Of a stretch of DNA of 64,000 nt, positions 22,901 to 36,567 are shown one piece after another. Made by a program: the position numbers and the translations under genes. The stretch lies in NCBI RefSeq assembly GCF_033954835.1, contig NZ_CP121471.1, positions 2,784,501 to 2,848,500 of the forward strand. The letters are read 5' to 3'. The notes beneath the pieces were generated by a model. The model was given only the letters and a program-made list of their open reading frames with translations. It was not told where the DNA came from and ran no database searches. This DNA comes from Thiorhodovibrio frisius. GTDB taxonomy: Bacteria; Pseudomonadota; Gammaproteobacteria; Chromatiales; Chromatiaceae. Within the stretch, counting starts at the first letter, position 1, and each line of letters begins with the position of its first letter.

Positions 22901-22932
22901 ACAGCGCCTGGATCATCGCCGGAAGCATCCAT
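19927..22932 (-). CDS. NHLP-type peptide export ABC transporter, permease/ATPase subunit
   Basis: 1001 residues. A Pro/Ala/Ser-rich N-terminal stretch of ~35 residues with loosely repeated VSAPEGASVSAPVAAPE is followed by a cytoplasmic regulatory region of ~390 residues. Then come a six-helix ABC exporter membrane domain (about 435-720) and an ATPase domain (about 760-990) with Walker A GASGSGKST, signature LSGGQMQR, and Walker B VLLLDEATSALD. It lacks the C39 peptidase of its partner at 22938. This matches the second transporter subunit that accompanies nitrile-hydratase-like leader peptide clusters. The likely role is to pair with the peptidase subunit and HlyD protein to export processed peptides. 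It ends the operon, 5 bases after the upstream gene. Confidence 0.92.
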   Translation of the reverse strand: MDASGDDPGAVPTGTPVSAPEGASVSAPVAAPEDAIEWPERLLRQGRAERLGGHQPIRLSDLNRAWLVRQGQVELFLVSLSPDGVEGTRHYLATVPAGGLLLGIGLDDSADFVLLAVPHVDTDLIEWPLALLSAESAAPDVLPALVPALEHWLRALSWGMSRWVTPLPVVDVGIGTDERLSIPSGRRCTAQQVLIWIRLAPEAGLFLDTQEIDSTADEVTFPLAAEAWLWTMTALELHGRSTAAALRDGDAWDGVATLHRLLFETASMNLMLGNADEYNRLMARRVATEAERDHAFSDLMSVTAPRPRLEATPVRGDIPLVGAMRLVGQACGFQIQVPVELKSDDALTLENIVRFSRLRQRTVTLRDDWWQGDFGALLAFEAETQRPLALLYTDQGRAQLIDPADGQELDFETHRQRLAPEAFEFTTHLPFRAMGFRSLFGFAFARGWRDAVLMLVMSAMAGMMTLAIPVTTAYLIDTAIPNHEVGHLIEIGVVLAVLGGTAFVVDYVATLAFTRAESRMGRALQSGLLDRVLRLPMRFFQNFSAGDLANRVMAMTQIQTLLSTGAVNAILSGIFGLAGFLLMFYYDARLALWALVLTLVYLILSLVISYLRLRQERALAGLMGDFSNILLHLILGVAKIRLAAAEDRAFARLASPYAKSRRHQLRSQRLGAWQSALNQVLALIGLLIFVLLIGKPSQAPNLIAIGAFSALLVAFQQFSASLSMMVMVATGLIAIQPQVERARPLLTAVPEVSEERKDPGALSGAIEVSHVSFRYTPNGPLILDDVSLEIEPGRFVALVGASGSGKSTLLRLIMGFESLESGGIFFDGQALTSVDATAVRRQMGVVMQNAQLMPGSLYQNIVGTSGGSLDDAWEAATQVGLADDIHAMPMGMQTVIMEGGGALSGGQMQRLMIARAIVNRPKVLLLDEATSALDNRTQAVVTESLDRLRVTRIVVAHRLSTVVNAERIHVMDAGRIVESGNYASLMQANGQFARLAARQMV

Positions 22933-22937
22933 TGGAC

Positions 22938-25136
22938 TCAGGTCTCAATCAGCTGCCGATAGGCGCCGTCTTCGGCAATCAGCTGGCTATGAGTGCCGCG
23001 TTGCAGGATATCGCCTTGGTGCATCACAATAATCTCATCGCAATCCCGAATGGTACTGAGCCGATGGGCGATGATCAGGCAGGTGCAGCCGCGGCGGCGC
23101 AGGTTGTTCATAATCGCCTCCTCGGTCAGGGTATCCAGGGCGCTGGTCGCCTCATCCAAAACCAAGAGCGTCGGATTGCCGGCCAGAGCGCGGGCGATCT
23201 CCAGGCGTTGTCGTTGACCGCCGCTCAGATTCCGACCATTTTCTCCCACCGGGGCGTCATAGCCGCCTCGACGACTGACGATGACATCGTGAATCTGCGC
23301 ATCCTTGGCCGCCGCCACCCAATGCTCCTGCGGCAGGGTGTCATCCCATAGACTAATGTTGTCGCGCACGCTGCCTTCAAACAACACCACATCCTGGTCC
23401 ACCACGGCCAGGGAGTTGCGCAGAATATCGCGCGGGATTTTCGTCATGGGCTGCCCGTCGAACAGAATCTGTCCGGCTTGGGGCTCCAACAGGCCGGTCA
23501 ATAACTTACCCACAGTCGATTTGCCGCTGCCAGAGCCTCCCACCAGCGCAACCCGGCTGCCGGGCGTCATCTCCAGGGAAAAATCCCGAATCAGCGGCGG
23601 ATCAAGCGGGGCATAGCCAAAGGAGATGGCCTCAAGGCGCACTTGCCCGCTCAACCGGCGTAACGGCGCCGTTGTGGGCCGCTGGGACGCTTCGGCGAAG
23701 TTCGTCTTGGTGTCCGTCTCAAGCTCATCAAATTCCCGCGCTAGGGGATAGCCCAGGGTGTCGTCCAATTGGGCAATGGCGCCCTGGGTCTGTTGCAGCA
23801 TGCCAGCCAAGCTCACTAACACAGTCACCGGCTGATTGAACAGCACAGTGATGACGGAAAACGCCACCAGCATGCCGATGGAGAACTGCTCCGTCATGGT
23901 GTAGTAGCCCCCCACCACCAGCACCAGCGCCGCCGTCAGACTCGCCAACCAGGTTTGCAGTCCCGCAATCAGCGCCTCGCGCTTGGCAATCGCTTGCTGC
24001 GCGTTAATGTAGAGCACCTGCAGCCCAGACCACTGCGAGAAAAACAGATCATCGGTGCCGGTGGATTTCAGGGTTTCCATCATGCGCACCCCTTGCATCA
24101 CCTTGCCACCCATCTTTACGGTCTGCATGGCGACCTTCTCCGAGGCTTCCCCCAGACTCTTGCGCAGGCGTTGGAAAAGCAGCGCGTTGAATAGATTCAT
24201 GCCGATGACGATCAGCGTCAGGGAGACGCTGTACTGCAACATCAGCAGCGTGAGCAGCAGCACGAGTGCCACATTGCTCAGCACCTGGGACAGGCTCTGG
24301 GTCAGGGTGAGCACCAGCTGATCTGCCAACCCCACCCGAGCGCTGATCATGCCCGCGTAGCGCTGACCAAAAAACAGCACCGGAAGACGCAACACGCGCC
24401 AGGCCAGTCGGCTAGTCAAGACGATGGAGAGTTTGGCGTTGAGCGCGGCAATGAGTCGGGCATGCAGCCAGGTGAGAAAGGCCATCACCGGCGCGATCAC
24501 CGCCAGAATGATCGCCAGGGGATAGACCCAATTGTCCAGCTGCTCGATCAGGATGCGATCAATATAGATCTGCTGCAGCCCCGGCATCAGGATGCTGAAA
24601 ACAGCCAGCAGCAGACCTGCCAAGGCCAACAGGCCCAGCGGCCAGAGCGACTGTCGAGCCATCGCCCACAGGCTGGGCAGGATAGATGGCGCTGTGCCAC
24701 CCGGCTGAAAGGCGTCGGTCGGCTCGAATGCCAGCACCAAGCCGGTAAAGAGTTCGTCGAATTCTTTGGCTGTTAGCAGCCGCCGACCGGCCGCGGGGTC
24801 ATTGAGCTGAAACTTCCCTTTGCTCACCCCCTCGAACACTACAAAGTGGTTCATGCCGACAAACAAAATGGCCGGCACCGGCAAGCTGGCCAGATCGTCC
24901 GGCTCCAGGCGTTTGCCGCTCGCCTTCAATCCAAGAACGCGGGCCGCCTTAACGAGATTGATCGCCTTACTGCCGTCTCGCGAGACCCCGCATAACAGCC
25001 GCAACTTCTCCAGCGGCTCCCAGCGCCCATAATGCGCCAACACCATGGCCAGGGCGGCAGCGCCGCACTCCAGGGCCTCCATTTGCAGGATGGTGGGCGT
25101 GCGCACCACACCAACCACCGGCTTGCGGGCGCTCAT
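22938..25136 (-). CDS. NHLP-type export ABC transporter with C39 leader peptidase
   Basis: 732 residues. The N-terminal C39 cysteine peptidase (about 1-140) has the catalytic Cys in MEALECGAAALAMVLAHYG, His in NHFVVFEG and Asp in LNDPAAG, all in place. Next are an ABC exporter membrane domain (about 165-440) and an ATPase domain with Walker A GGSGSGKST, signature LSGGQRQR and Walker B LLVLDEATSALD. The enzyme cleaves leaders after a Gly-Gly or Ala-Gly pair while transporting the peptide out. The precursors at 26959-32099 all end their leader with such a pair. The start overlaps the HlyD-like gene by ATGA, so the three transport genes form one operon. Confidence 0.94.
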   Translation of the reverse strand: MSARKPVVGVVRTPTILQMEALECGAAALAMVLAHYGRWEPLEKLRLLCGVSRDGSKAINLVKAARVLGLKASGKRLEPDDLASLPVPAILFVGMNHFVVFEGVSKGKFQLNDPAAGRRLLTAKEFDELFTGLVLAFEPTDAFQPGGTAPSILPSLWAMARQSLWPLGLLALAGLLLAVFSILMPGLQQIYIDRILIEQLDNWVYPLAIILAVIAPVMAFLTWLHARLIAALNAKLSIVLTSRLAWRVLRLPVLFFGQRYAGMISARVGLADQLVLTLTQSLSQVLSNVALVLLLTLLMLQYSVSLTLIVIGMNLFNALLFQRLRKSLGEASEKVAMQTVKMGGKVMQGVRMMETLKSTGTDDLFFSQWSGLQVLYINAQQAIAKREALIAGLQTWLASLTAALVLVVGGYYTMTEQFSIGMLVAFSVITVLFNQPVTVLVSLAGMLQQTQGAIAQLDDTLGYPLAREFDELETDTKTNFAEASQRPTTAPLRRLSGQVRLEAISFGYAPLDPPLIRDFSLEMTPGSRVALVGGSGSGKSTVGKLLTGLLEPQAGQILFDGQPMTKIPRDILRNSLAVVDQDVVLFEGSVRDNISLWDDTLPQEHWVAAAKDAQIHDVIVSRRGGYDAPVGENGRNLSGGQRQRLEIARALAGNPTLLVLDEATSALDTLTEEAIMNNLRRRGCTCLIIAHRLSTIRDCDEIIVMHQGDILQRGTHSQLIAEDGAYRQLIET

Positions 25137-26395
25137 AGCGCGCGGAACCAGCCGTAGACGTATTCCATCGCCGGGAACAAGAGGCTGATCAGATGAATAC
25201 GCTCCACCACCACCTCGGAACGGGCCAAGGTTCCGGGTTCAATCGGGATGTCAGGGCCTTGGCCGGAAGTCCATGCGTACCCGCTAGGTGTCGTTGCATC
25301 GCGCTGCAACTCTACCTCTACCTCGAATGGGGTGCCAGAGCTGAGAATCTCATCCACAAACACGGCATTCTTGAGGCGGCGCATCAAGCCTTCGCGACTA
25401 GAAGGCAGTTCCGCGACCCGAATCACACGGCCATGAATATAGCCGTCAAGCTCCACCTTCACCGTCGAGGGCGAAACCCGCGCCGGCATGTCGATTTTGA
25501 CCTTTTTTCCGTCGCCAGCCGGCAAATAGGCAACGGCGGTCAGCGGTGCCTCCTCCGCGCCATCGACCAACAGCCGTGCAATGACCTGTCCGGGAGTGAC
25601 GGGATCGTTCACATCAACGCCCAGTTCGGCGAGGTCCCCCGTCGCGGTGGCGAGCACTTGACCGTCCCGATCATACTCTCGGCGCAGATTGGCGGCGCGA
25701 CGGCGCAGATTCAGTGACTGGATACGCAGCTCCGCCAGTTCCTGGTGTCGCCGAGCCGCGTCCTGCTCCTGCTGCAGCGACGTCTCGACCATGCGATTCC
25801 GCGCGGTCGCGATTTCATGCTCCACCTGAGCCAAGAGCTGCGCCGTCTCGAACTGATTGACCGCACTCACCATGCCCTTACCCTGCAACCTGGCCTCACC
25901 CTCACTGCGCTTGGCCAGCACCGCACGCTGCTTCTCCAGAGTCGCAATGCGCTCCGCATCCGCCGCGCGCAGACGCGCCATCAAGTCCGTCTGGAGTTGA
26001 TCCTGGGCCGCAAACTCGGTTTGCAGAAGCTCATACCGATCATTGACATCGCGGGCCTCATCCTCTGCCGCCTCAAGCTCATCAAGCCGCTCGGGCTGGC
26101 GAATTCTGGCGATTGGTTGGCCCAGAGTGACCGCATCACCAGGCTGAACCAAAATCGCGTCAATATGCCCGCTGCCCTGGGCGGTCACCGCCGCCACACC
26201 AGCGGACGAGAGCAAAACGCCAGGGCCACCGACAATCACCGGCGCCGTGGACAGGATGCTCCAGATCAAGCCCGCGACCATAACAGCAGCAACAACGCCG
26301 AACCCCAGCACATGCCGAGGGCGGACGACGCTCAGAAGCTGATCGAGTTGATCGGGATCGGTGACTTTTGCGAGAACCTGCGGACGAAATAGCAT
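25133..26395 (-). CDS. HlyD-type periplasmic adaptor of the NHLP export system
   Basis: 420 residues: cytoplasmic N-terminus, one transmembrane helix about 33-55, a biotinyl-lipoyl-like half motif (GSGHIDAILVQPGDAVTLGQPIARI), a long alpha-helical hairpin with coiled-coil character (about 105-235), the second half motif, and a beta-barrel region. Membrane-fusion proteins of this kind link an inner-membrane ABC exporter to an outer-membrane channel. No TolC-type channel is encoded here, so a shared TolC elsewhere is presumed. It is the first gene of the transport operon; the 560 bases upstream hold only reverse-transcriptase remnants, so its promoter is not evident and it may be read through from the precursor genes. 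Confidence 0.9.
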   Translation of the reverse strand: MLFRPQVLAKVTDPDQLDQLLSVVRPRHVLGFGVVAAVMVAGLIWSILSTAPVIVGGPGVLLSSAGVAAVTAQGSGHIDAILVQPGDAVTLGQPIARIRQPERLDELEAAEDEARDVNDRYELLQTEFAAQDQLQTDLMARLRAADAERIATLEKQRAVLAKRSEGEARLQGKGMVSAVNQFETAQLLAQVEHEIATARNRMVETSLQQEQDAARRHQELAELRIQSLNLRRRAANLRREYDRDGQVLATATGDLAELGVDVNDPVTPGQVIARLLVDGAEEAPLTAVAYLPAGDGKKVKIDMPARVSPSTVKVELDGYIHGRVIRVAELPSSREGLMRRLKNAVFVDEILSSGTPFEVEVELQRDATTPSGYAWTSGQGPDIPIEPGTLARSEVVVERIHLISLLFPAMEYVYGWFRAL

Positions 26396-26487
26396 GGTCA
26401 GTTTGCTCGGGATGCCAGGGTGAAATCACCCACCTGAGTATTCGAATAGTTGCCAGTTCCCGAAGCGGCGGCAAAAGGCTCCGAATC

Positions 26488-26523
26488 GACTCCGGCTGAC
26501 CATGTGGTGTTGGCATCTATGGT
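26488..26523 (+). repeat. Truncated extra copy of the RT-fragment repeat
   Basis: GACTCCGGCTGACCATGTGG and the bases after it closely match the segment near 26720-26755 of the following RT fragment and its equivalents at 27563 and 28460. So a short piece of one copy is joined directly to the start of the next. It shows that the array once had at least one more unit on this side. Confidence 0.55.
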
Positions 26524-26862
26524 GTGCACTCTGTGCTCGCGGCGCTGAGGCTCAGCGTCCATCCGGACAAGCGCTTTATCGGCAAAACCGCCAGAGGGTT
26601 CGATTTCCTGGGATATCGCTTCCGACCGGGCCGGAAACGGCGGCCCGCCCAGCAGTCCATCGACCGACTCACCACCCGCGCGCGTCGGCTTCATGAGCAA
26701 GGAGCCGCTCTCTATCGGCTCCGGCAGACCATGTGGCGTTGGTATCGATGGCTGCATGGCGGGCTACGCGGCCGGGTCAGCACCAAGGGGCGATTCACCA
26801 GGGTCTGGGTCTTGATACTGAAACAGCTTCACCTCACCGGCAACCGTATCCGCCCGCGCTGA
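26524..26862 (+). pseudogene. Reverse transcriptase C-terminal fragment, copy 1
   Basis: A 112-codon frame encoding only the tail of a group-II-intron-like reverse transcriptase. The start LRLSVHPDKRFIGK followed by GFDFLGYRF is the segment after the catalytic palm; then come a basic helix (RARRLHEQ) and WRWYRWLHGGL. The YxDD catalytic box and all upstream domains are absent, so it cannot polymerise. It lies antisense and just downstream of NHLP precursor 1. The same fragment recurs at 27363, 28258 and, decayed, at 30976. It differs in sequence from the complete intron RT at 54864, so it comes from another element. Confidence 0.8.
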
Positions 26863-26958
26863 GCGGCCTCCGGCCGCGCACGGTTGGGGTGTCGCTGGAA
26901 CACAGCCAGGCGCGTTCTGCCCCTGGCTTCCCCGCCGCGCGTGGATCAACATCCGCAT

Positions 26959-27243
26959 CTACATAAATATAGTAAAATTTTGATGCACAAAGGGCCGTAT
27001 CAACAACGCTCCCGCCGACACCTCTGAGAGATCTTCATCCGCTAAATCCGTCGGCCGGGCAGGAATCACCAGATTCAAGACCTGCGCGGTGTTTTCTAAG
27101 GCATTGACCTTCACGCCATCAGGAACCACGACGCCCTCCGCTTTCAGGGTTCCTGCCGGATCGGCCAGAAGCCGCTGCTTGAAGGCCTCGTCGGCCCAGC
27201 ACTTGGCAATGAGTTGCTGATACTGTTTGGCTTGGTCGTTCAT
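26959..27243 (-). CDS. NHLP-family ribosomal peptide precursor 1
   Basis: 94 residues from ATG 27243, preceded by TGAGAACACC as in all precursors here. Residues 1-77 form a nitrile-hydratase-alpha-like leader (KQYQQLIAKCWADEAFKQRLL, then VLNLVIPARPTDLADEDL). The leader ends in VSAG, a C39 cleavage site. The predicted core is the 16 residues ALLIRPFVHQNFTIFM. It has no Cys or Ser and one Thr, so lanthionine or thiazole formation is unlikely; it is strongly hydrophobic with one Arg and one His. The leader region is nearly identical in DNA to precursor 2, but similarity stops at the leader end (27031). The exporter genes downstream are the expected processing and secretion machinery. Confidence 0.88.
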   Translation of the reverse strand: MNDQAKQYQQLIAKCWADEAFKQRLLADPAGTLKAEGVVVPDGVKVNALENTAQVLNLVIPARPTDLADEDLSEVSAGALLIRPFVHQNFTIFM

Positions 27244-27362
27244 GGTGTTCTCAGTTAGACATTCGTGAGTTGAGTAACGCGCCGTCATGGAATTTCCCAC
27301 CCTGGAGGCAAACATCCCGTTCAGCAGCGGCGCGCTGGCCCAGTTAGCATGCCCGCTTCGCA

Positions 27363-27704
27363 GTGGTCAGACAACTAAAATGGCTATCCTTGCTGGTCGT
27401 TCTCTCTCACTGGAGTTTCATCGGTAAAACTGCTAGGGGGTTCGATTTCCTGGGGTATCGCTTCCGACCGGGCCGGAAACTGCGGCCCGCCCAGCAGTCC
27501 ATCGACCGACTCACCACTCGTGCACGCCGGCTTCATGAGCAAGGAGCCCCTCTCTATCGGCTTCGGCAGACCATGTGGCGTTAGTATCGATGGCTGCATG
27601 GCGGGCTGCGCGGGCGAGTCAGCACCAAACAGCGATTCCTCAGGGTCTGGGTCACCGTTCTAAAACGACTTCACCTCACCGGCAACCGTATCCGCCCGCG
27701 CTGA
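27363..27704 (+). pseudogene. Reverse transcriptase C-terminal fragment, copy 2 (internal stop)
   Basis: The same fragment as copies 1 and 3, read from ATG 27363 through FIGKTARGFDFLGYRF. The frame is interrupted by TAG at 27582-27584, where the other copies have TGG (Trp). After the stop the same frame continues with YRWLHGGLRGR to a TGA at 27702-27704. The first 54 bases differ from copy 1 but are identical to copy 3, so copies 2 and 3 arose by a later duplication with an 895-bp offset. Antisense to the precursors. Confidence 0.8.
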
Positions 27705-27788
27705 GCGGCCTCCGGCCGCGCACGGTAGGGTGTCGCTTGACCACAGCCAGGCGCGTTCTGCGCCCTGGCTTCCCCGCCGCGCGTGGAT

Positions 27789-27926
27789 CTATCTTGTTCA
27801 ACTCATTTAAACAAAATTACCATTTACCGGTGATTCATTCTTTGTTATCTAAAATAACTATTGTTCTGATTTTCCTCTATATTTTTAAATCAAGTATATC
27901 CTGTACCTCCCGCCGTGCCGCTCAAC
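27789..27926. other. AT-rich variable slot of cassette 2
   Basis: About 138 bases between the constant RT-fragment flank (ends CGTGGATC at 27788) and the constant leader sequence (resumes TCTTCATCCGC at 27927). Much of it is strongly AT-rich, for example around 27790-27900 with runs of T and A, unlike the GC-rich flanks. It contains the core codons and 3' end of precursor 2. The equivalent slot of cassette 1 (about 26948-27030) is shorter and has unrelated sequence, although it too starts AT-rich. Confidence 0.7.
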
Positions 27927-28138
27927 TCTTCATCCGCTAAATCCGTCCGCCGGGCAGGAATCACCAGATTCAAGACCTGCGCGGTGTTTTCTAAGGCATT
28001 GATCTTCACGCCATCAGGAACCGCGACGCCCTCCGCTTTCAAGGTTCCTGCCGGATCGGCCAGAAGCCGCTGCTTGAAGGCCTCATCCGCCCAGCACTTG
28101 GCAATGAGTTGTTGGTATTGGTTGGATTGGTCGTTCAT
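27890..28138 (-). CDS. NHLP-family ribosomal peptide precursor 2 (very short core)
   Basis: 82 residues from ATG 28138, with GGAGAACACC as ribosome site. The leader is almost the same as precursor 1 (KQ to NQ at residues 5-6 and a few conservative changes) and ends DLADEELSGTAGG. After the Gly-Gly only TGYT remains before the stop, so any mature product would be a tetrapeptide, or the core has been lost. The 3' end lies in an AT-rich insert. Its upstream region (28139-28260) is nearly identical to that of precursor 1, including the spacer before the RT fragment, and marks an 895-bp duplication unit. Confidence 0.82.
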   Translation of the reverse strand: MNDQSNQYQQLIAKCWADEAFKQRLLADPAGTLKAEGVAVPDGVKINALENTAQVLNLVIPARRTDLADEELSGTAGGTGYT

Positions 28139-28257
28139 GGTGTTCTCCGATAGACATTCGTGAGTTGAGTAACGCGCCGTCATGGAATTCCCCACCCTGG
28201 AGGCAAACATCCCGTTCAGCAGCGGCGCGCTGGCCCAGTTAGCATGCCCGCTTCGCA

Positions 28258-28599
28258 GTGGTCAGACAACTAAAATGGCTATCCTTGCTGGTCGTTCTCT
28301 CTCACTGGAGTTTCATCGGTAAAACTGCTAGGGGGTTCGATTTCCTGGGGTATCGCTTCCGACCGGGCCGGAAACTGCGGCCCGCCCAGCAGTCCATCGA
28401 CCGACTCATCACCCGTGCGCGTCGGCTTCATGAGCAAGGAGCCGATCTCTATCGGCTGCGGCAGACCGTGTGGCGTTGGTATCGATGGCTGCATGGCGGG
28501 CTGCGCGGCCACGTCAGCACCAAGGGACGATTCACCAGGGTCTGGGTCACCGTGCTAAAACGACTTCACCTCACCGGCAATCGTATCCGCCCGCGCTGA
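28258..28599 (+). pseudogene. Reverse transcriptase C-terminal fragment, copy 3
   Basis: A 113-codon uninterrupted frame with the same content as copies 1 and 2: FIGKTARGFDFLGYRF, a basic helix, WRWYRWLHGGLRG, and the ending HLTGNRIRPR. Only the post-catalytic part of the enzyme is present. It is virtually identical to copy 2 over the first 150 bases. It lies between precursor 2 and precursor 3 on the opposite strand. The open frame may simply reflect recent duplication rather than selection. Confidence 0.8.
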
Positions 28600-28686
28600 G
28601 CGGCCTCCGGCTGCGCGCGGGTGGGTGCCACCAGGCTAAAGCTCGGCGCGTTCTGCATCGCTGTCTCGCTCTCTCCCACATGCGTT

Positions 28687-28977
28687 TCACCCACGCACGC
28701 CAGGTCTGCGGTCGGTCGGGCATACCATGCCGCCACCAACAATCCCACCACTTACGCCGCCCAACCCCTCATCAGATAATTCTGTTGGCCTAATCGGAAT
28801 CACCAGATTCAAGACCTCCGCGGTGTTTTCCACTACCTGAATCCGGATGCCTTCGGGCACCTCCCCCCCCTCGTCTTTGAGTGTCTTGGCCGGGTTGGCC
28901 AGGAGCCGCTGCTTGAAGGCCTCGTCGGCCCAGCACTTATTGATGAGTTGCTGATACTGTTTGGCTTGGTCATTCAT
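28687..28977 (-). CDS. NHLP-family ribosomal peptide precursor 3
   Basis: 96 residues from ATG 28977, behind AGGAGAACACT. The leader shares MNDQAKQYQQLI-KCWADEAFKQRLL with the others but is more diverged in the middle (LKDEGGEVPEGIRIQVVENTAEV). It ends ELSDEGLGGVSGG. The core after Gly-Gly is IVGGGMVCPTDRRPGVRG: 18 residues, Gly- and Arg-rich with one Cys and one Thr, the only core in the array with a Cys. The permease gene lies 62 bases upstream on the same strand, so the two may share a transcript. Confidence 0.87.
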   Translation of the reverse strand: MNDQAKQYQQLINKCWADEAFKQRLLANPAKTLKDEGGEVPEGIRIQVVENTAEVLNLVIPIRPTELSDEGLGGVSGGIVGGGMVCPTDRRPGVRG

Positions 28978-29039
28978 AGTGTTCTCCTATAGAAGACCCT
29001 AGGTATCCATTAGAATTTTAGGAAATTCTCTGCTGGGTA

Positions 29040-30749
29040 TTAGTGTTTAAAGTGCAGCCTTGTTTGCGTCTCTTCTCCCACGCATTTGGTTACAACTTTG
29101 TCTGCCCATGAGCGGACGAGGAAGCCAGCTAGTTGACGCGCACCATCGGATTCAACAATCTCACCCATCGACGGAGCTGTTTCCGGAAGCCCTGGTGCAT
29201 TTCCAAGATGGGTAATGCAGATATCAAGATTGTACTCATCAAAAGAAGCCTCAATGTCAGTAACGGAGGAGACTGTCTCGAGATATCCAAGGGCCTCAAC
29301 ATACTCGATGGTGGCGGCGGTGGCCTTCTTAATCACTTCAGGACGGGCCGCCCAGGCGCCGCCCTGCTTTTCCATAAAAGTGGCAATAGCCTGATGGTAA
29401 TGCGTGTCTGACTCAAGCTTGAGAGAGGCTTTTGCTTTGATGCCAATGCGGAAGATCAGGTTAAGGACGAGAGCTGAGATTGTAGCTGCGGAAAGCGAGG
29501 AAGAGAAGATGGCCCTGAGGATAGGATGCAGGTCCGCGAACGCTTGAGGCAATAGATCTACCGTTAGACCGCAAATTATGGACAGGCCGATGATAAATGT
29601 TTTCCTGCCATCGAGCATTCTGGACATGATAATCTGAATACCTGCCACAATCATAAAGCCGAGTGCGAATACAAGAGTTGCACCCACCACGGGACGCGGC
29701 ATGATCGCAAAAATTCCGGTGATCTTTGGACAAAATGCCAGCATGATGAGAACTATCCCAGTACTCCAGGCAATGGCGCGGCTGGTGGCTCCAGTGGCAA
29801 TGGTTAGACCAATATTGGTGGAGGATGTCGATTGACCAAATCCGCCGAATACGCCCGCCGAGAAACATCCCACCGCATCAGCTAGGATGCCTTTTTGAAT
29901 GTTGTCCATGTCTGGACGTTTCCATTGAGTATCATTGATTTTTTGGCAGGTGGTTATATCTCCAACACTCTTGAGGCTGGAGCAGACCATCGCGATAATT
30001 ATGGGCAGAACCATATTTACATCGAAGGCCCAACCTGGGTGGATGGAGAATGGAAACCAGATAACCGGACGTGACATGGCATGGCTAATCTCTTGGACTG
30101 TTAATGCGCCGAAAAGCATGGCTGCTGTATAACCAGCCACCATGCCTATGAGGGCACAGAACAGCTTCACCTTCCCCTGTGTCCAAACATTAAGGCCGAC
30201 CATGATTGCAAGGGTGATACCACCAATCATTGCCCCTTGACCATTGATTGCACCGGATGGATCGAGGTCGAGGAAATTCTGCCCACTCATTTTGACGACC
30301 GTTATGCCAACCATAGCCACGATAAGTCCGGTCACTTCGGTGGGAAAGAGCACACGGAGCTTGTGTATTGCGCGGGAGAAAAGTGCTTCGATTACTCCGG
30401 CAAAAGCGGTCATGCCAAAGACGAGCGGCAGGCCGCCGGTTTTCATACAAAGAAAGGACGCAGCCAGATAGGACGGGCCGCATAACTGCGGACAGAGATA
30501 GCCTGATCCCACCGGACCTTTACGTAAAGATTGAACAATGACGCCGATGCCCCCTGCAAGCATAGACATGCTGATAACAAAGGCAGCCTGATCGGTGGTG
30601 CCGCCGCCTTCGTGGATAAGGAGAATGGGAAGTACAAAGGAAATGGCTATGATGCTGAAATGTTGCAAACCAAGAAATGCGTTGATCAACAAGGGTGGAC
30701 GATCTTCAAGCCCATAGAGCAAAGAGGTTGGTTTCATGCTGTGATTCAT
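29040..30749 (-). CDS. NCS2-type nucleobase permease with extra C-terminal domain
   Basis: About 569 residues. The start is uncertain: ATG 30749 or 30737 fits the family N-terminus, while a GTG at 30791 opens the frame; none has a good ribosome site. Roughly 450 residues are hydrophobic with 12-14 helices and resemble xanthine/uracil permeases, which import nucleobases with H+ or Na+. It carries the family-like QNFLDLDPSGAI and GFGQSTSSTNIGL segments. The last ~125 residues are soluble: helix, strand SFDEYNLDICI, HLGNAPG, then ARQLAGFLVRSWADKVV and QTRLHFKH. This pattern resembles an RsbW-like HATPase domain lacking the N-box Asn. GC content is visibly lower than in the rest of the window, suggesting transfer. 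Sited among peptide precursors, its link to them is unclear. Confidence 0.82.
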   Translation of the reverse strand: MNHSMKPTSLLYGLEDRPPLLINAFLGLQHFSIIAISFVLPILLIHEGGGTTDQAAFVISMSMLAGGIGVIVQSLRKGPVGSGYLCPQLCGPSYLAASFLCMKTGGLPLVFGMTAFAGVIEALFSRAIHKLRVLFPTEVTGLIVAMVGITVVKMSGQNFLDLDPSGAINGQGAMIGGITLAIMVGLNVWTQGKVKLFCALIGMVAGYTAAMLFGALTVQEISHAMSRPVIWFPFSIHPGWAFDVNMVLPIIIAMVCSSLKSVGDITTCQKINDTQWKRPDMDNIQKGILADAVGCFSAGVFGGFGQSTSSTNIGLTIATGATSRAIAWSTGIVLIMLAFCPKITGIFAIMPRPVVGATLVFALGFMIVAGIQIIMSRMLDGRKTFIIGLSIICGLTVDLLPQAFADLHPILRAIFSSSLSAATISALVLNLIFRIGIKAKASLKLESDTHYHQAIATFMEKQGGAWAARPEVIKKATAATIEYVEALGYLETVSSVTDIEASFDEYNLDICITHLGNAPGLPETAPSMGEIVESDGARQLAGFLVRSWADKVVTKCVGEETQTRLHFKH

Positions 30750-30975
30750 CGGGTACGCGTCTGGTTTTTCATGACATTTTTGCCTAAACACCTCTTGCGG
30801 GAGATGCGCTAGCCCGCATCGCTCATCATACTTGGCGCTTACTTGCCTGCAGACTTTGACTCTTTGACAACTCCTGGCGACCGCACTCGGCCATTATGTT
30901 GAGCGCTACATTACGGCCAGGTGCGGATGTTCAACCGGCGCCAGCGAGTAATGACAACGCCTCCTTCAGCGGACG

Positions 30976-31096
30976 TTCCATACGGAGAGCTGCGCGGCAG
31001 GCTCATCCGAGTCTGAACCAATGGGCGATTCACCTGGGTCTGGGTCACAGCACGAAACGGCTTCACCTCACCGGCAACAGTATCCGCCAACGCTGA
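30976..31096 (+). pseudogene. Reverse transcriptase C-terminal fragment, copy 4 (decayed)
   Basis: DNA similarity to the ends of copies 1-3 is clear in CTTCACCTCACCGGCAAC and TCCGCCAACGCTGA, and the following GGCCTCCGGCTCC matches the flank of the other copies. Frameshifts and an in-frame stop break the coding sequence: the tail LTGNSIRQR is in one frame and GRFTWVWV in another. It is the oldest-looking member of the array. Confidence 0.65.
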
Positions 31097-31253
31097 ACGG
31101 CCTCCGGCTCCACGCGGATGGGGTGTCACCGGTTCAAGGAAAGCCGGGTTCTGTGGCCCTATCTGCGCCCGCCCTTGCGCGCTGACACCTCGACATTTAC
31201 ATCACGTCCATATCCCCCTTCAAACTAAAACAACTTATCTCCATATCTACCCA

Positions 31254-31335
31254 GGGTGTTCTCCAGTGGTTGATGGTGCCCCCTCAGATCACCTGCGGCG
31301 TTTCGGGCGAGGAGCAGGGGACCGGACCCGGACCG
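31254..31335. repeat. Relic of a deleted precursor gene's upstream region
   Basis: GGTGTTCTCCAGTGGTTGAT and the following bases, including GCGAGGAGCAGGGGA, align with the sequence just upstream of precursor 4 (31625 onward) and more loosely with that of precursor 5 (32100 onward). These regions carry the ribosome site and leader transcript of the precursors. Here no leader peptide follows (to the left, on the minus strand), so one more precursor gene appears to have been lost between the RT relic and precursor 4. Confidence 0.6.
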
Positions 31336-31375
31336 CCTGAACAGATCAGAACCCGACCTACCCTCTCCCCCGCAG

Positions 31376-31624
31376 TCAACGAGTCATAAAGCCACCCGCC
31401 ACCGCCTCCAACGCGTTGTCAGGTACATCCGTTGGGCAGGCAGGAATGACCAGATTCATGACCTGCGCGGTATTTTCCAACACCTGAATCCGAGTTCCCT
31501 CGGGCACATTAATACCCTCCGCCTTAAGCGTCCCGGCCGGATCGGCCAACAGCCGCTGCTTGAAGGGCTCGTCAGTCCAGCACTTTTTGATGAGTTGCTG
31601 ATACTGTTTGAGTTGGTCGTTCAT
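31376..31624 (-). CDS. NHLP-family ribosomal peptide precursor 4 (short core)
   Basis: 82 residues from ATG 31624, behind CTGGAGAACATC. The leader is MNDQLKQYQQLIKKCWTDEPFKQRLLADPAGTL-like at its start and ends VPDNALEAVAGG. Only FMTR follows the Gly-Gly, so the encoded core is four residues, as in precursor 2. The leader remains intact and conserved, which argues that it was functional recently. Lies between the relic at 31254 and precursor 5, all on the minus strand. Confidence 0.82.
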   Translation of the reverse strand: MNDQLKQYQQLIKKCWTDEPFKQRLLADPAGTLKAEGINVPEGTRIQVLENTAQVMNLVIPACPTDVPDNALEAVAGGFMTR

Positions 31625-31811
31625 GATGTTCTCCAGTAGTTGATGATGACCTTTCGGGTCATTCGCTGCGGTAACGGCGAGGAGCAGAACCCTGACCGCG
31701 TGATCAGATCAGGACGCGGCACAGCCCCCATGCATCCGATCCGCCAAGGATAATGCCAGCGTCAAGAAGATAGTATCGAGCAACGGCTTCGCTCCATACC
31801 ATTGAAAATCC

Positions 31812-32099
31812 CTATATCGCAAAACCCGCATTCAAAGCCAATGGAATCGCGCTCTCAGACCCTTGACCTGCCGCCAGACCAGCCAACTCATCATCTGCGA
31901 GTTCTGTAGGCCGGATGGGGATAACGAGGTTCAAGACCTGCGCGGTGTTTTCCACGACCTGAACTTGAACTCCCTCGGGCAGCTCAAACCCCTCGTCTTT
32001 GAGCGTCTCAGCCGGCTTTGCCAGGAGCCGCTGCTTGAAGGCCTCGTCGGCCCAGCACTTATTTATCAGCTGCTGGTACTGTGTGGATTGTTCTTTCAT
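31812..32099 (-). CDS. NHLP-family ribosomal peptide precursor 5
   Basis: 95 residues from ATG 32099 (an upstream in-frame start at 32219 adds unrelated residues); ribosome site GGGAGAACACG. The leader begins MKEQSTQYQQLINKCWADE-like and ends ELADDELAGLAAG. The predicted core after Ala-Gly is QGSESAIPLALNAGFAI: 17 residues, Ala-rich with two Ser and no Cys. It is the first precursor of the minus-strand series and lies 267 bases from the divergent phosphatase gene, so the intervening region probably holds promoters for both. Confidence 0.86.
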   Translation of the reverse strand: MKEQSTQYQQLINKCWADEAFKQRLLAKPAETLKDEGFELPEGVQVQVVENTAQVLNLVIPIRPTELADDELAGLAAGQGSESAIPLALNAGFAI

Positions 32100-32337
32100 C
32101 GTGTTCTCCCGTATTTGAAAATCGTTTCCCAACCCGAAGCGGCGATTCTGGCGAGGAGCAGAACCAGGACTGCTTGACTCTATCAGGACGCAGCAGCCTA
32201 CTTGTGCCGAACAGGCCAAGGATAGAACATTCCCGCCAAAAAGCTAGATGCAAAGCATCACTTCGTATATTGTTAAATCGACTGAATGATCAAACTGACC
32301 GACCACCGCTGCGAAGCACACCTTCTGAGGTGATGAC

Positions 32338-32376
32338 GATGACACTCTCTACAGCAGTCCATAACGATGATCTCTA
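32338..32376 (+). CDS. Possible short leader ORF coupled to the phosphatase gene
   Basis: ATG 32338, eight bases after a GAGG, encodes MTLSTAVHNDDL and stops at TAA 32374-32376. The phosphatase ATG (32367) lies inside it in another frame and has no ribosome site of its own. Overlapping stop and start regions of this kind allow translation re-initiation. This rests only on spacing; the peptide resembles nothing known. Confidence 0.3.
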
Positions 32377-34217
32377 AAAGTTTAGGCCTTAAGTTGACAG
32401 TTCTTGTGCTTGGTGTTTCAGCCCTGATTCTTGGGGCAGTATTGACCAACACCTACCTGTTCTCGAAACACGTTATTGTCGAACAAGCAGAAGAGCGCAG
32501 CCGGACCCTTGGCAGAGAGGCCGCCAACAGAATTGCCGCACTAATTAAGCCTGTCGAGCAAGCGGCACAAAACATTGCCCTGGCAATGGAAGACAGCTCG
32601 CTGAGGAGTGAAGAAATCAGCTTGCTGCCTCAGCGTGTGGTGAATAACAACCAGGATCTTTTCGGCATGGCCATCGCCTTTGAGCCATACGAATTATCCA
32701 AGGATAAGCGGTTTTTTTCCCCTTACAGCTACCGCGATCAGGATGAAATTAAAAGCATTATGATCGGCGGTCCTGATGAAAACTATTTTGAGCTACACTG
32801 GTATAAAGTTTGTAAAGAAAAGGGGGTACCAGTCTGGTCAGAACCCTATTACGACACCGTCGGCTCTAAGTCGCTCATGGTCACCTATTCAGTCCCCTTT
32901 TATCGTGCAGATAAGGGAGGCACGCATTTCGCCGGTGTCGTTACCGCGGATATCACCCTTGATTGGTTGCAGGAGATGATGTCGGGCTTCAAGCTTTACC
33001 AAACCGGCTACACTTTAATCCTCAGCGCTTCCGGGACCTTTATCTACCATCCGGTCCAGCAATTGGTATCAAATGAAACGATTTTTTCACTCGCCGACAG
33101 GTTGCAGAGTGAAGAGTTGACTGAGATCGGCCGCAATATGATTGCCGGCAAGACGGATTTCATTGTGCGTCCGAGCTTCCGTGACAAAAAAGAAAGCTTT
33201 TTGTTCTATATGCCTTTGCCCATTGGCGGCTGGTCGCTTGGGTTTCTCTTCCCGACCAATGAGGTTTTAACTCACGTACACGAATTAACGCGCAATACGC
33301 TACTAATCGGTCTTGCCGGTTTTGTCGTACTCACCCTGGCCGTGTTATGGATTTCCAGACGCATTACCCAGCCCATTCGGACTCTTTCAGATGGTGCACT
33401 TGAAATTGCTGGAGGCAATCTTTACGCGACTCTACCATCCGCGCAATCTAAAGATGAAGTGGGCCAACTGACTGACTCCTTGAATACCATGCAGAAGTCG
33501 CTACATGCCTATGTCGCTAATCTGGAACAAACCACAATTCACAAAGAGCGGATAGAGTCAGAATTACGGATCGCCCGTGACATTCAGATGGGCATCCTGC
33601 CGAAACTCTTTCCAGCGTTTTCCGAGTATGAGGAATTTGATATTTTTGCCAGCCTCAAGTCAGCCAAAGAAGTGGGTGGCGATCTTTACGACTTCTTTTT
33701 TATTGATCCGCACCACGTCTGTTTTAACATCGGGGATGTTTCTGGCAAAGGTGTACCGGCAGCCTTCTTTATGGCCATCACCAAGACCCTGATCAAGGTG
33801 ATGGCTGAACGAGACTCCGACCCTCACCGGATTATTGAAAAGGTCAATAATGACCTGGCCGAGGACAATGAATCCTGCATGTTCGTCACATTGTTTCTGG
33901 CTATTCTAGACATTCGTACCGGCCAAGTGAGTTACTGCTGCGCCGGTCACAATCCACCCATTCTGAGACAAGCGGGGGTGACGACCTACCTGAAAACCAT
34001 GGGCGAACCGATTGCCGGCGCCTTGCCCGATATCGAATACACCACTCAGTACCTGACTCTGGCCCCAGGAGACACGATATTTCTCTACACCGACGGCGTC
34101 ACAGAAGCGATGAATATAAATGATGAACTCTATTCCGATGCACGACTGCTCAACTTTATGACCCAGGTAGAAACACAAAATGCTGCTGATATCATTGAGC
34201 CATACCATTACCCATAA
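32367..34217 (+). pseudogene. SpoIIE-type PP2C phosphatase sensor gene, 5' part (split by IS)
   Basis: 616 residues: TM about 7-28, periplasmic dCache about 38-295 (FFSPYSYRDQDE and WSEPYYDTVGSKSLMVTYSVPFY), TM about 307-328, HAMP about 329-382, then a PP2C/SpoIIE domain from about 395 (QMGILPK, KEVGGDLYDFF, GDVSGKGVPAAFFMA, TDGVTEAMN). Such proteins dephosphorylate STAS antagonists in partner-switching systems. At 34200 the IS4-type element interrupts the gene. The frame reads six codons into the terminal repeat (PYHYP, stop). The missing last 30 codons include the final metal-binding Asp-Asp motif and lie intact at 36585-36676. The truncated product probably lacks phosphatase activity. GC content is low compared with most of the window. 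Confidence 0.9.
34191..34200. repeat. Target-site duplication, left copy
   Basis: ATCATTGAGC directly abuts the left end of the IS4-type element; an identical 10-mer follows its right end at 36575-36584. Joining the flanks through one copy restores the phosphatase frame (AADIIEQVSRSV), proving the insertion point. Confidence 0.97.
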
Positions 34218-34306: not shown

Positions 34307-35188
34307 ATGGACCAAGGCATTCCAAGTCGCTTATGTGGGCGCCCCTTCAACGAAACCGACTTAGCGCGCATTCGCCACGAAATCGCACTGGCGCAGCCGC
34401 CGCTGCGCGCGGAGATCGCGCGGCGGGTGTGTCGCGCGCTGGACTGGACCGATATCCAAGGCCGCCCAAAGCTCATGAGTGCCCGCGTGGGGTTGCTGCG
34501 TCTGCATCGCGCCGGTCTTATCGAACTCCCACCGCCGAGCTGCGGCAATGGCAATGGGCGCCGATACCTCGCGCGCCCCGAGACCTGGCCCGAGCCGGTC
34601 CCGGTGTCTGGTCCGCTGCGCACCCTCAGCGGCTTGCACTTGGCGCCCGTCAGTGACCGGCGTACCTCGCACTTATGGAATAGCCTGATCGAATGCTATC
34701 ACTACCTCGGCTACAGCCCACTGCCCGGTGCGCAGCTGCGCTACCTGATCCAGTGGGATGGCGGCCTACTCGGCGCCATCGGCTTTGGGGCGGCGGCCTG
34801 GAAAGTCGCCGCCCGCGACCGCTGGATTGGCTGGACGCCCGCGCAGCGCCAAGCGCAGCTGGGGCGGGTGCTCAACAACGCCCGCTTCCTCATCCTGCCC
34901 TGGGTGCAGGTCAAGCACCTCGCCTCCAAGGTCCTGTCCGTGGCCGCGCGACAAGTAGCCGTCGACTTCCCCGCCCGCTACGGCGAGCGCGTCGTGCTGC
35001 TGGAGACCTTCGTCGAGACCCCGCGCTTTGCGGGCACCTGTTATCGTGCCGCCAACTGGCAGTCTCTCGGCGAGACCACCGGACGGGGCAAAACCGACCG
35101 CACCCATCAGGCCGCGCTGCCGCGCAAAGCGGTCTATGTCTATCCGCTGGCGGCCAACTTCCGCACCGCCCTGGGGGTGGTGGCATGA
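34307..35188 (+). CDS. DUF4338 / Druantia DruA-like protein inside an insertion sequence
   Basis: 293 residues, starting 106 bases from the left repeat. The N-terminal part has a predicted winged-helix-like region (DLARIRHEIALAQPPLRAEIARRVCRALDW, LMSARVGLLRLHRAGLIELP). The conserved DUF4338 core follows: LIECYHYLGYSPLPGAQLRYLI, LGAIGFGAAAWKVAARDRWIGW, NNARFLILPWVQVKHLASKVLS, LLETFVETPRFAGTCYRAANW, LGETTGRGK and VYVYPL. DruA is a component of Druantia anti-phage loci, but DUF4338 proteins also occur next to transposases. Here none of the other Druantia genes is present. It lies wholly within the element and overlaps the transposase start by ATGA, so it is more likely an accessory of transposition or a carried defence gene. 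Its biochemical role is unknown. Confidence 0.85.
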   Translation: MDQGIPSRLCGRPFNETDLARIRHEIALAQPPLRAEIARRVCRALDWTDIQGRPKLMSARVGLLRLHRAGLIELPPPSCGNGNGRRYLARPETWPEPVPVSGPLRTLSGLHLAPVSDRRTSHLWNSLIECYHYLGYSPLPGAQLRYLIQWDGGLLGAIGFGAAAWKVAARDRWIGWTPAQRQAQLGRVLNNARFLILPWVQVKHLASKVLSVAARQVAVDFPARYGERVVLLETFVETPRFAGTCYRAANWQSLGETTGRGKTDRTHQAALPRKAVYVYPLAANFRTALGVVA

Positions 35189-36567
35189 TGGCGCCTGAAT
35201 CCAAATTGGCATCCGAGCTCCAAGACATCTCCCTGGGTGATCGGCGTCTCAATCACCGTGCCCAGCAGTTGATCGAAACCCTCGGCGCCAAGCCAACACA
35301 GAGCATTCCGGGGGCCTGTAACGGCTGGGATGAGACCCGTGCCGCCTATCGTTTTTTCGATCATGACCGGGCCACCGCCAAGCAGGTGCTCGCCCCCCAT
35401 GTCGCCTGCACCCAAGCGCGTCTGCGCGAACATCCCCGGGTGCTTTGCATTCAAGATACCAGCGAGCTGGACTATACAACCAAAAAAGGCATCGCCGGTC
35501 TTGGGCCGCTGAACTTTGAGAGCCGCTATGGGATGTACATCCATCCCACCTTGGCGCTCACGCCCGAGCGCGTCGCACTGGGGTTGCTCGACTTGCACAC
35601 CTTCACGCGCGAGCCCGGGAGCTTAGGCCAGGACAAAGACCCATTGCGCCCGCTGGAGGAGAAAGAGAGCGTGCGCTGGGTCGATGGCTACGGGCGTGTC
35701 AATGAGCTGGCCGAGACACTGACCGACACGCGCCTGACCTACATCGCTGATCGCGAGGGGGATATTTACGACCTGTTCGTCGAGGCCCCTATCCCTGAGA
35801 ACAGCGCGGATTGGCTGGTGCGGGTGCAGCATCGCGACCGCTGCCTGGCCGATGGCAGAAAGCTCAATGAGGCCCTGGACGCCGCCCCGGTGCTCACCGA
35901 GATCACCTTCGAGCGTCCCGCCACCAAGGGGGCCAAGGCGCGTCAGGTCGAGCAGGAGGTGAAGGTGGTGCGCGTGACCCTAAAGGCGCCTAGGCGTCCG
36001 GATCGCACCTTGGCCGATGTCACGGTCACGGCCTTGCTCGCCACCGAGGTCAATCCACCCGCCGGCGAGGAACCGCTTAACTGGCTGTTGCTGACCAATA
36101 TGGCGGTAGAAACCGCCGAGCAGGCCATCGAGAAGCTCTCCTGGTATCTTTGCAGGTGGCAAGTGGAGATTTTTTTCCGAATTTTAAAAAGCGGCTGCCG
36201 CATTGAGGAGCTTCAGTTAGAAACCCGCGAACGCCTCGAGCCGGCGCTCGCCTTCTACATGATCATCGCCTGGCGGGTGTTGCATCTGACCATGCTCGGG
36301 CGCGAATGCCCGGAGTTGCCTTGCGATGCGGTCTTTGCCGAAGAAGAATGGAAAGCGGTTTATCTGGTCACCCAACGCCAAGCACCACCCGAACAGCCGC
36401 CTTCGCTCGACACCATCGTGCGCATGGTTGCCAGCCTCGGCGGCTTTCTCAACCGCAAATCCGATGGGTTTCCGGGGCCGAAGACGCTCTGGATTGGCTT
36501 GCAGCGCATCCCCGATTTTGTGATGGCGCTGGAGGCATACCGCAGCGTCGGGGATAGTTATGGGTAA
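35185..36567 (+). CDS. IS4-family transposase (Tn5-like N-terminal domain)
   Basis: 460 residues from ATG 35185, coupled to the DruA-like gene; the longer frame from 34693 is only shadow. The N-terminal domain (ELQDISLGDRRLNHRAQQLIETL, RAAYRFFDHDRA) matches the Tn5-type DNA-binding region. The DDE triad is visible: Asp in CIQDTSELDYT (~95), Asp in TYIADREGDIYD (~192), and Glu in the IS4 YREK-like helix WYLCRWQVEIFFRILKSGC (~330). Such enzymes excise and insert the element through hairpin intermediates. The stop lies inside the right terminal repeat. No damage is seen, so activity is plausible. Confidence 0.94.
   Translation: MMAPESKLASELQDISLGDRRLNHRAQQLIETLGAKPTQSIPGACNGWDETRAAYRFFDHDRATAKQVLAPHVACTQARLREHPRVLCIQDTSELDYTTKKGIAGLGPLNFESRYGMYIHPTLALTPERVALGLLDLHTFTREPGSLGQDKDPLRPLEEKESVRWVDGYGRVNELAETLTDTRLTYIADREGDIYDLFVEAPIPENSADWLVRVQHRDRCLADGRKLNEALDAAPVLTEITFERPATKGAKARQVEQEVKVVRVTLKAPRRPDRTLADVTVTALLATEVNPPAGEEPLNWLLLTNMAVETAEQAIEKLSWYLCRWQVEIFFRILKSGCRIEELQLETRERLEPALAFYMIIAWRVLHLTMLGRECPELPCDAVFAEEEWKAVYLVTQRQAPPEQPPSLDTIVRMVASLGGFLNRKSDGFPGPKTLWIGLQRIPDFVMALEAYRSVGDSYG

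Follow-up and report, generated by a model that had tools for sequence, protein, structure and literature searches.

NHLP-type peptide precursor cassettes with an apparently replaceable 3′ segment beside UG4 reverse transcriptase sequences in Thiorhodovibrio frisius and relatives

The stretch of DNA analysed here (hereafter, the window) comprises 64,000 nucleotides, positions 2784501-2848500 of the 5.4 Mb single-contig genome of the purple sulfur bacterium Thiorhodovibrio frisius. It carries five genes coding for precursors of ribosomally synthesized and post-translationally modified peptides (RiPPs) of the NHLP type (W1 to W5), adjoining NHLP exporter genes that score above the cut-offs of TIGR03794, TIGR03796 and TIGR03797. 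All five precursors pass the cut-off of TIGR03793 (leader_NHLP), as does A1, a further copy located 1.7 Mb away. In cassettes 1 to 3, the leader and its core-encoding slot are accompanied by an antisense, 5′-truncated tail of a reverse transcriptase (RT) of the UG4 class (Table 1); RT_UG4 matched the tail at 26500-26859 with an expectation value (E) of 2.9e-18, and was the sole PADLOC family found there at E 1e-8 or better. An intact catalytic domain is absent from the window, as the tails begin downstream of the FMDD motif, and no full-length UG4 RT of this family was found in our searches of the host genome, which suggests that what the window holds are decayed and tandemly duplicated remains of a system of this kind, the local RTs being relics.

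Cassettes 1 and 2 were aligned and their identity computed per stretch of 30 alignment columns. The alignment bore out an initial annotation of this DNA, according to which near-constant leader and upstream DNA and an antisense RT tail enclose an unrelated slot. Upstream of the gene, identity is 100% from -270 to -61, 93-96% closest to the ATG and 86% at the outer end; the leaders are about 92-95% identical overall (83-100% per stretch), and the right flank together with the RT tail about 90% (73-100% per stretch). Over 100 nt, the right block of W1 is 0.90 and 0.93 identical to those of W2 and A1, respectively. In the slot, identity drops to 13-60% per stretch and 161 of 200 shuffled sequences score as high as the true pair, that is, the two slots show no similarity above that of shuffled sequence. 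The slot had been thought to hold exactly the core codons; the core does lie within it, but its limits are wider, because the last eight or so leader codons ahead of the GG/AG site also differ and the divergence extends past the stop codon, for 11 nt in copy 1 and 100 nt in copy 2. Since this non-coding DNA is as unlike between copies as the codons are, while the flanks are near identical, point mutation or selection acting on codons is rejected as an explanation; in all likelihood, judging from the alignment, the 3′ segment was replaced as a block between fixed flanks. Pooled, slots 1, 2 and A1 have 69% A+T, against 39% for the window. We further compared 24 slot pairs (three from this genome and 21 from Actinomycetota; see below), each against 200 shuffles: in 21, at least 16 shuffles scored as high, and the remaining three (N2/N4, N4/M1 and N5/M1, with 3, 0 and 2 shuffles as high) perhaps owe their similarity to a few common bases at the right edge.

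Leader side and RT side of the slot seem to have had different histories. Among the four leader-RT pairs of this genome (W1, W2, W3 and A1), synonymous difference (pS) is 0.49-0.61 for the leaders and 0.11-0.13 for the RT tails in five of the six comparisons (Fisher p 5.6e-6 or less). The W3 leader, for example, differs by 0.57 from W1 and 0.61 from W2, and tail c by 0.13 from each of the other three tails; copy 3, described at first as having the same layout with more divergence, thus has that layout and an old leader, but an RT tail as young as the others. Five cassettes of Actinomycetota lean the same way in all 10 pairs, with p below 0.05 in six. Either young RT tails and cores joined old leaders, or the tails were homogenised up to the unlike slot; under both alternatives the discordance means that, on these sequences, the slot is a recombination boundary. 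Duplication with homologous recombination would offer an explanation in which leader and RT relic are mere conserved flanks, unrelated cores are brought in from other copies or strains through double crossover or conversion, and the RT is a selfish gene that hitchhikes. Two constant flanks are all that crossover needs, the W1/W2 pair is a tandem duplication in which a single unit junction is shared, the leader/tail discordance fits conversion halted by the unlike slot, and C-terminal swapping of adhesins is common in general. We regard this explanation as possible but rather doubtful, because it accounts neither for the presence of the same RT class beside NHLP-type leaders in two phyla and at adhesin ends, nor for purifying selection on the intact RT, nor for the origin of new cores (slot 2 occurs only once in the genome), and because an RT-less array lacks such a pattern (see below for each).

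The initial annotation had proposed a search of related genomes for the leader-slot-RT unit as a check, with an intact RT near such loci counting in its favour; the unit does recur, with intact RTs of this type near related loci, both in purple sulfur bacteria and in Actinomycetota. Relatives within the family include Thiocystis minor (G146), an uncultured member of Lamprocystis (G167) and a Halochromatium (G118). An RT match at E 1e-15 or better was obtained in 8 of 194 family genomes, in six of which it is close (best match above 65% identity), and 15 of the 194 have leaders above the TIGR03793 cut-off. Leaders of the subtype found here, defined by a score of at least 100 bits against a model made from six leaders of this genome, were examined in the retrieved stretches for an antisense RT match of 14 bits or more within 450 nt downstream. 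Fifteen of 31 such leaders, from five genomes (G000, G146, G167, G107 and G028), had one; a single RT stretch serves two of the fifteen, and several of the matches, at 15-39 bits, are short or weak. In another genome (G031), an RT tail lies on the opposite side of the leader at the contig end, as in a tandem array. Cassettes H1 and H3 of T. minor have leaders 83-96% alike per stretch and different cores, with a hairpin block after the stop codon in common. As a control, we used a genome of the same genus (G076) with an RT-less array of another NHLP leader subtype (37-43 bits to the model). Four similar copies there have leaders 0.91-0.95 alike and cores 0.54-0.80 alike, with 0 to 3 of 200 shuffles as high for the cores in all six pairs; the right flanks are 0.59-0.62 alike, except for one pair at 0.84, and a fifth copy is unlike the others. 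With its homologous cores and mostly dissimilar right flanks, the RT-less array appears to be the reverse of the slot pattern.

A scan of genome contigs gave nine loci, and the unit was found in three genomes of Actinomycetota (G212, G214 and G283). G212, of the Nanopelagicales, has a full-length UG4 RT (289-297 aa by the start chosen) with a YADD motif, tail-to-tail with leader N1; further leaders are scattered over other contigs, some with RT tails or right blocks. N1 and N2 have leaders 92-95% identical and right flanks 100% identical over 100 nt, around slots of 41 and 48 nt that cannot be aligned (189 of 200 shuffles as high). This comparison and that of W1 with W2 support the view, put forward in the initial annotation, that a core is swapped between fixed flanks rather than altered by ordinary mutation. 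The RT was found in 6 of 85 genomes of the Nanopelagicales family, two of the matches being weak or short. Sixteen leaders were seen in Actinomycetota, 11 of them with a right block starting with TAG and five without such a block or cut; in 10 of the 11 TAG-starting blocks, whose borders were placed by hand, stops occur in all three frames within 21 nt, through differing codons and offsets, which is only suggestive of an excess over chance. A 3.7 kb contig (L106), binned as Thermoleophilia (binning unchecked), carries a frame-broken UG4-like RT and three leaders, the one scanned being above the TIGR03793 cut-off. Between the slots of M2 (L152, in G214) and P3 (L189, in G283), all five substitutions are transversions between complementary bases; their leaders differ by 18 transitions and 13 transversions. 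Because the RT recurs in two phyla at one position relative to NHLP or NHLP-like leaders (see below), and always turned the same way, it is, as far as sequence comparison tells, not a chance passenger. The initial annotation had left it at recombination or retro-copying, with the RT as cause or passenger: the chance passenger can be set aside, whereas swapping by the RT, or retro-copying, is something that we infer.

UG4 (PDLC03779), not the class of diversity-generating retroelements (DGRs), is by a wide margin the best PADLOC family for all eight RTs scanned (the window tail, L016, L039, L149, L150, L155, L158 and L161), a class assignment made by profile score. L016 and L039 have the FMDD motif and L108 a YADD; the RTs of L039, L149 and L150, which lie near RiPP genes and were scanned in full, match the profile only from position 57-61 on. 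The ratio of nonsynonymous to synonymous substitution (dN/dS) of the intact RT was 0.15-0.19 in three comparisons in Actinomycetota, two of them with a partial RT, which is consistent with purifying selection in some relatives. A model of the Nanopelagicales RT (mean predicted confidence, pLDDT, of 82.6, from a six-row alignment) matched the G2L4 RT best (9d4s; template-modelling (TM) score 0.72), followed by a group II intron RT (0.71) and the DGR RT 8ub7 (0.69, or 0.62 by target); the predicted structure indicates an RT fold, not which chemistry. In L040 and L150, the UG4 RT lies downstream of asparagine-synthase homologues, neighbours that are typical of lasso-peptide clusters; no lasso-type precursor was established near either RT, only the asparagine-synthase neighbours being confirmed.

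The RT stretches beside purple-bacterial leaders start at residue 94-262 and end at residue 262-287 of 287. Together with the finding that, in this genome, old and young leaders alike have tails of about the same low age, this would fit retrotransposition in the manner of long interspersed nuclear elements, in which 5′-truncated copies of the RT transcript were inserted downstream of leaders, bringing unrelated DNA that became the core. We consider this improbable: ascertainment favours 3′ parts, tandem duplication spreads truncated tails as well, and one RT stretch (L100, residues 5-142) has the 5′ part only.

UG4 RTs also occur at adhesin and fimbrial loci on plasmids, which were described and compared only. 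The Salmonella UG4 RT matches 47 plasmid records at E 1e-20, and in all five Salmonella plasmids examined an inverse-autotransporter gene has the RT, or a fragment of it, converging on its 3′ end. One of these plasmids has two adhesin genes that are 96% identical over 4,976 nt and then unrelated for about 600 nt, beyond which the UG4 RTs are alike at 91%, one copy being 5′-truncated; in a pair from different plasmids, 95.7% identity over about 4,250 nt is followed by a gap of about 610 nt and then by 95.4%. In two E. albertii plasmids (the one informative pair), identity is 91% in the fimbrial operon and 97% in the UG4 RT; 13 nt short of the RT stop codon the similarity ends, and the adhesin gene lying beyond is unrelated. 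With the same Salmonella query, tblastn against phage records found nothing at E 1e-20 and a DNA search of complete E. coli genomes found nothing; viral contigs gave 15 RT relatives, with identity of at most 37%.

The explanation that we prefer, with a probability of roughly 0.5, is that these are NHLP-type RiPP cassettes in which the 3′ segment is replaced between the leader and a block on the UG4 side, probably driven by UG4, the RTs of the window being relics. Block replacement, the recurrence of the unit, the presence in some relatives of an RT that is intact and under constraint, and the differing histories on the two sides of the slot are all read from sequence; that the UG4 RT is the agent of replacement we consider an even call. 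DNA synthesis by the RT would begin in or close to the conserved block that adjoins the 3′ end of the RT gene itself, and the new segment would be written from a switched RNA template or untemplated, an untemplated source of the new sequence being unlikely; the segment would then be joined to the leader by end-joining or homology. Under this mechanism, the 5′-truncated tails would be by-products of incomplete copying, and the three-frame stops of the right block would close any reading frame. Tentatively, and with less than even confidence, UG4 RTs might constitute a new class of DGR in which no template is mutated and an adjoining gene, coding for a product that is secreted or sits at the surface, instead has its entire 3′ end rewritten (a RiPP core, the end of an adhesin or a fimbrial adhesin), possibly with untemplated or captured sequence, and with a block of three-frame stops in some lineages. 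A DGR of the known kind, in which a template repeat would be copied into the core by adenine-directed mutagenic retrohoming, is disfavoured and seems very improbable. The RT does adjoin a hypervariable 3′ end, a hairpin-forming block is predicted beside the variable segment in some copies, as is known for DGR targets, and DGR RTs are among the closest folds. However, the slots vary in length and most cannot be aligned (21 of the 24 pairs are not clearly above shuffles), slot 2 has no template-like second copy in its own genome, the RT class is UG4, and adenine-specific substitutions were not seen, the one alignable slot pair, M2/P3, having changes at A, G and C.

Several observations weigh against the explanation that we prefer. 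W1/W2, the exception among the six comparisons above, has equal pS for leader and tail (0.18 and 0.19), as simple duplication predicts, and taken alone this pair resembles plain duplication. For 16 of the 31 subtype leaders, the search over 450 nt downstream gave no RT match, the sequence available there being at least 200 nt for 11 of them and under 200 nt for five; no leader was found at three close RT loci of the family (L040, L042 and L044), and L150 and L151 are also leaderless. TIGR03793 is the best family for the actinobacterial leaders, but all four scanned stay below its cut-off (38-46 bits against 50.9), for which reason we term them NHLP-like. M2 and P3 share a slot, 0.85 alike against 0.86 for their leaders, which points to inheritance between species with ordinary divergence. 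In a column permutation on 10 of the right blocks, the evidence that three-frame stops exceed chance was weak (9 observed, mean 7.0, fraction 0.036). At fimbrial loci, the RT is co-directional and not tail-to-tail in eight of the nine examined (two of them near-identical), so that what the loci have in common would be contact between the variable segment and the RT 3′ end rather than convergence of the genes. A C-poor slot does not stand out in Actinomycetota, whose right block is likewise rich in G, and we have therefore dropped slot base bias as proof of untemplated synthesis. A template repeat was not found when slot 2 was compared with its own genome, and no convincing source of slot 2 emerged (best phage match E 0.03, best plasmid match E 0.3), nor any of the A1 slot in plasmids (best E 2). 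Two of these points bear on what the initial annotation had held to be incompatible with its proposal. Gradual divergence through the core occurs in one case (M2/P3); and RTs apart from NHLP genes do exist, both at the five leaderless loci and in the adhesin and fimbrial types of plasmids.

The source searches covered slot 2 and, in plasmids, the A1 slot, and copying of the slot from host, phage or plasmid was rejected as a candidate on their outcome. In its own genome, slot 2 has no second copy (the next best match is 23 nt at 87%, and the longest exact one 15 nt) and no donor copy of the silent-cassette kind was found. Templated insertion from the near flanks stood out in one of 13 slots (N4, 2 of 200 shuffles). 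Slots N4 (L146:4739-4768) and A1 (L016:9804-9881, minus strand) share an exact 15-mer encoding W-G-W-N, of which no other exact copy was found in the four genomes searched; it may reflect chance, convergence or exchange.

Coordinates in the window are collected in Table 1. The region 26396-32099, initially taken as a whole to be tandem cassettes, is so for cassettes 1 to 3; it also contains an unrelated xanthine-permease-like gene (29040-30791, minus strand), which separates precursor 3 from precursor 4, and neither W4 nor W5 has an adjoining RT tail, save for a relic at about 31000-31153, none being found beside W5. At the left end of RT tail a (26480-26515), a seemingly displaced piece of the same RT is, by eye, fused to the remainder, an arrangement that resembles a rearrangement or template-switch scar. 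No modifying enzyme was found among the products of 10 further open reading frames (ORFs) of the window that were scanned with Pfam. Rfam at gathering score gave no match, and thus no group II intron RNA, in 26000-33000, and Tandem Repeats Finder found nothing in 25000-33500. Near the precursor array is a Tn5-type transposase gene (34693-36567, plus strand); a group II intron RT/maturase (54864-56138, plus strand; TIGR04416 above cut-off) is unrelated to the UG4 tails.

Table 1. Features of the precursor array and its exporter genes, in window coordinates.
Feature	Position	Strand	Remarks
NHLP ABC2 export gene	19927-22932	-	TIGR03797/TIGR03796/TIGR03794 set, above cut-off
NHLP ABC1 with C39 peptidase	22938-25136	-	Peptidase_C39 match
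HlyD-type adaptor	25133-26395	-	NHLP export gene set, above cut-off
UG4 RT tail a	26518-26862	+	Antisense to W1, 5′-truncated; corresponds to residues 174-283 of the L039 RT
Cassette 1 right constant block	26863-26953	-	Non-coding, between slot and RT stop; predicted hairpins
Cassette 1 slot (hand-placed)	26954-27009	-	Core codons, stop and 5 nt past the stop
W1 whole ORF	26959-27243	-	94 aa; core ALLIRPFVHQNFTIFM; ATG at 27243
Precursor 1 (W1) leader	27010-27243	-	Ends AG; TIGR03793 E 7.9e-24, above cut-off
Cassette 1 constant upstream region	27244-27411	-	93-100% identical per alignment stretch to cassette 2 counterpart
UG4 RT tail b	27405-27704	+	5′-truncated; one in-frame TAG
Cassette 2 right constant block	27705-27789	-	By alignment with cassette 1
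Cassette 2 slot	27790-27904	-	115 nt, AT-rich, 100 nt non-coding
W2 whole ORF	27890-28138	-	82 aa; core TGYT; ATG at 28138
Precursor 2 (W2) leader	27905-28138	-	Ends GG; TIGR03793 E 1.5e-23
Cassette 2 constant upstream region	28139-28306	-	By alignment with cassette 1
UG4 RT tail c	28303-28599	+	5′-truncated
Precursor 3 (W3)	28687-28977	-	96 aa; TIGR03793 E 6e-26; own core
W3 leader	28744-28977	-	Diverged
DNA relic of RT 3′ end and right block	31000-31153	+	Repeat families D3, D4; 79% match
Precursor 4 (W4)	31376-31624	-	82 aa; core FMTR; TIGR03793 E 4.4e-24
Precursor 5 (W5)	31812-32099	-	95 aa; TIGR03793 E 6e-25

We know of no settled account of how RiPP precursors with a constant leader gain unrelated cores. 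If the RT is the agent, one compact enzyme of about 290 residues would block-replace the business end of peptides and adhesins, a diversification distinct from that of adenine-mutating DGRs, and would lend itself naturally to generating libraries of peptides behind a fixed leader; should the RT be no more than a flank, these cassettes still record core replacement with unusual clarity. The differing target families offer independent places for testing the replacement idea. Among the literature matches listed, there was no report of an RT associated with NHLP/RiPP, inverse-autotransporter, fimbrial or hypervariable-adhesin genes, and their excerpted text gave no function for the UG4 RT.

Untemplated or end-joining activity is a property of the G2L4 RT, the top fold match here. 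Abi and DRT enzymes illustrate that the addition of random DNA or the joining of ends is within the reach of bacterial RTs, as far as the excerpts go (PMC9508834, PMC13275509). By analogy, activities of these kinds are a possible source of new cores; the difference lies in the synthesis activity of those enzymes, UG4 being known here from sequence and model only. As in DGRs, an RT lies next to a hypervariable part of a product that is exported or found at the surface; the cassettes differ in that no template/variable repeat pair was found here and in that the slots are of unequal length and without common origin, rather than related by adenine substitutions. The RTs themselves are like known UG4 RTs, RT_UG4 being the best family for the window tail and seven others. 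That class was called restricted to Proteobacteria in the excerpted text of Toro 2014 (PMC4244168), whereas it is found here also in Actinomycetota; its neighbours were fimbrial in 66% of cases according to the excerpt of myRT (PMC8934634), whereas here they are NHLP exporter and precursor genes, peptide genes being unnamed in the excerpts of both papers. Hypervariability of NHLP RiPP cores was already known (Haft 2010, PMC2887384, as excerpted), and the precursors described here resemble those in leader, in a mostly GG cleavage site, in the hypervariable core and in the NHLP exporter genes; what sets them apart from the description in that excerpt is a sharp replaceable slot, a constant right block and a convergent RT.

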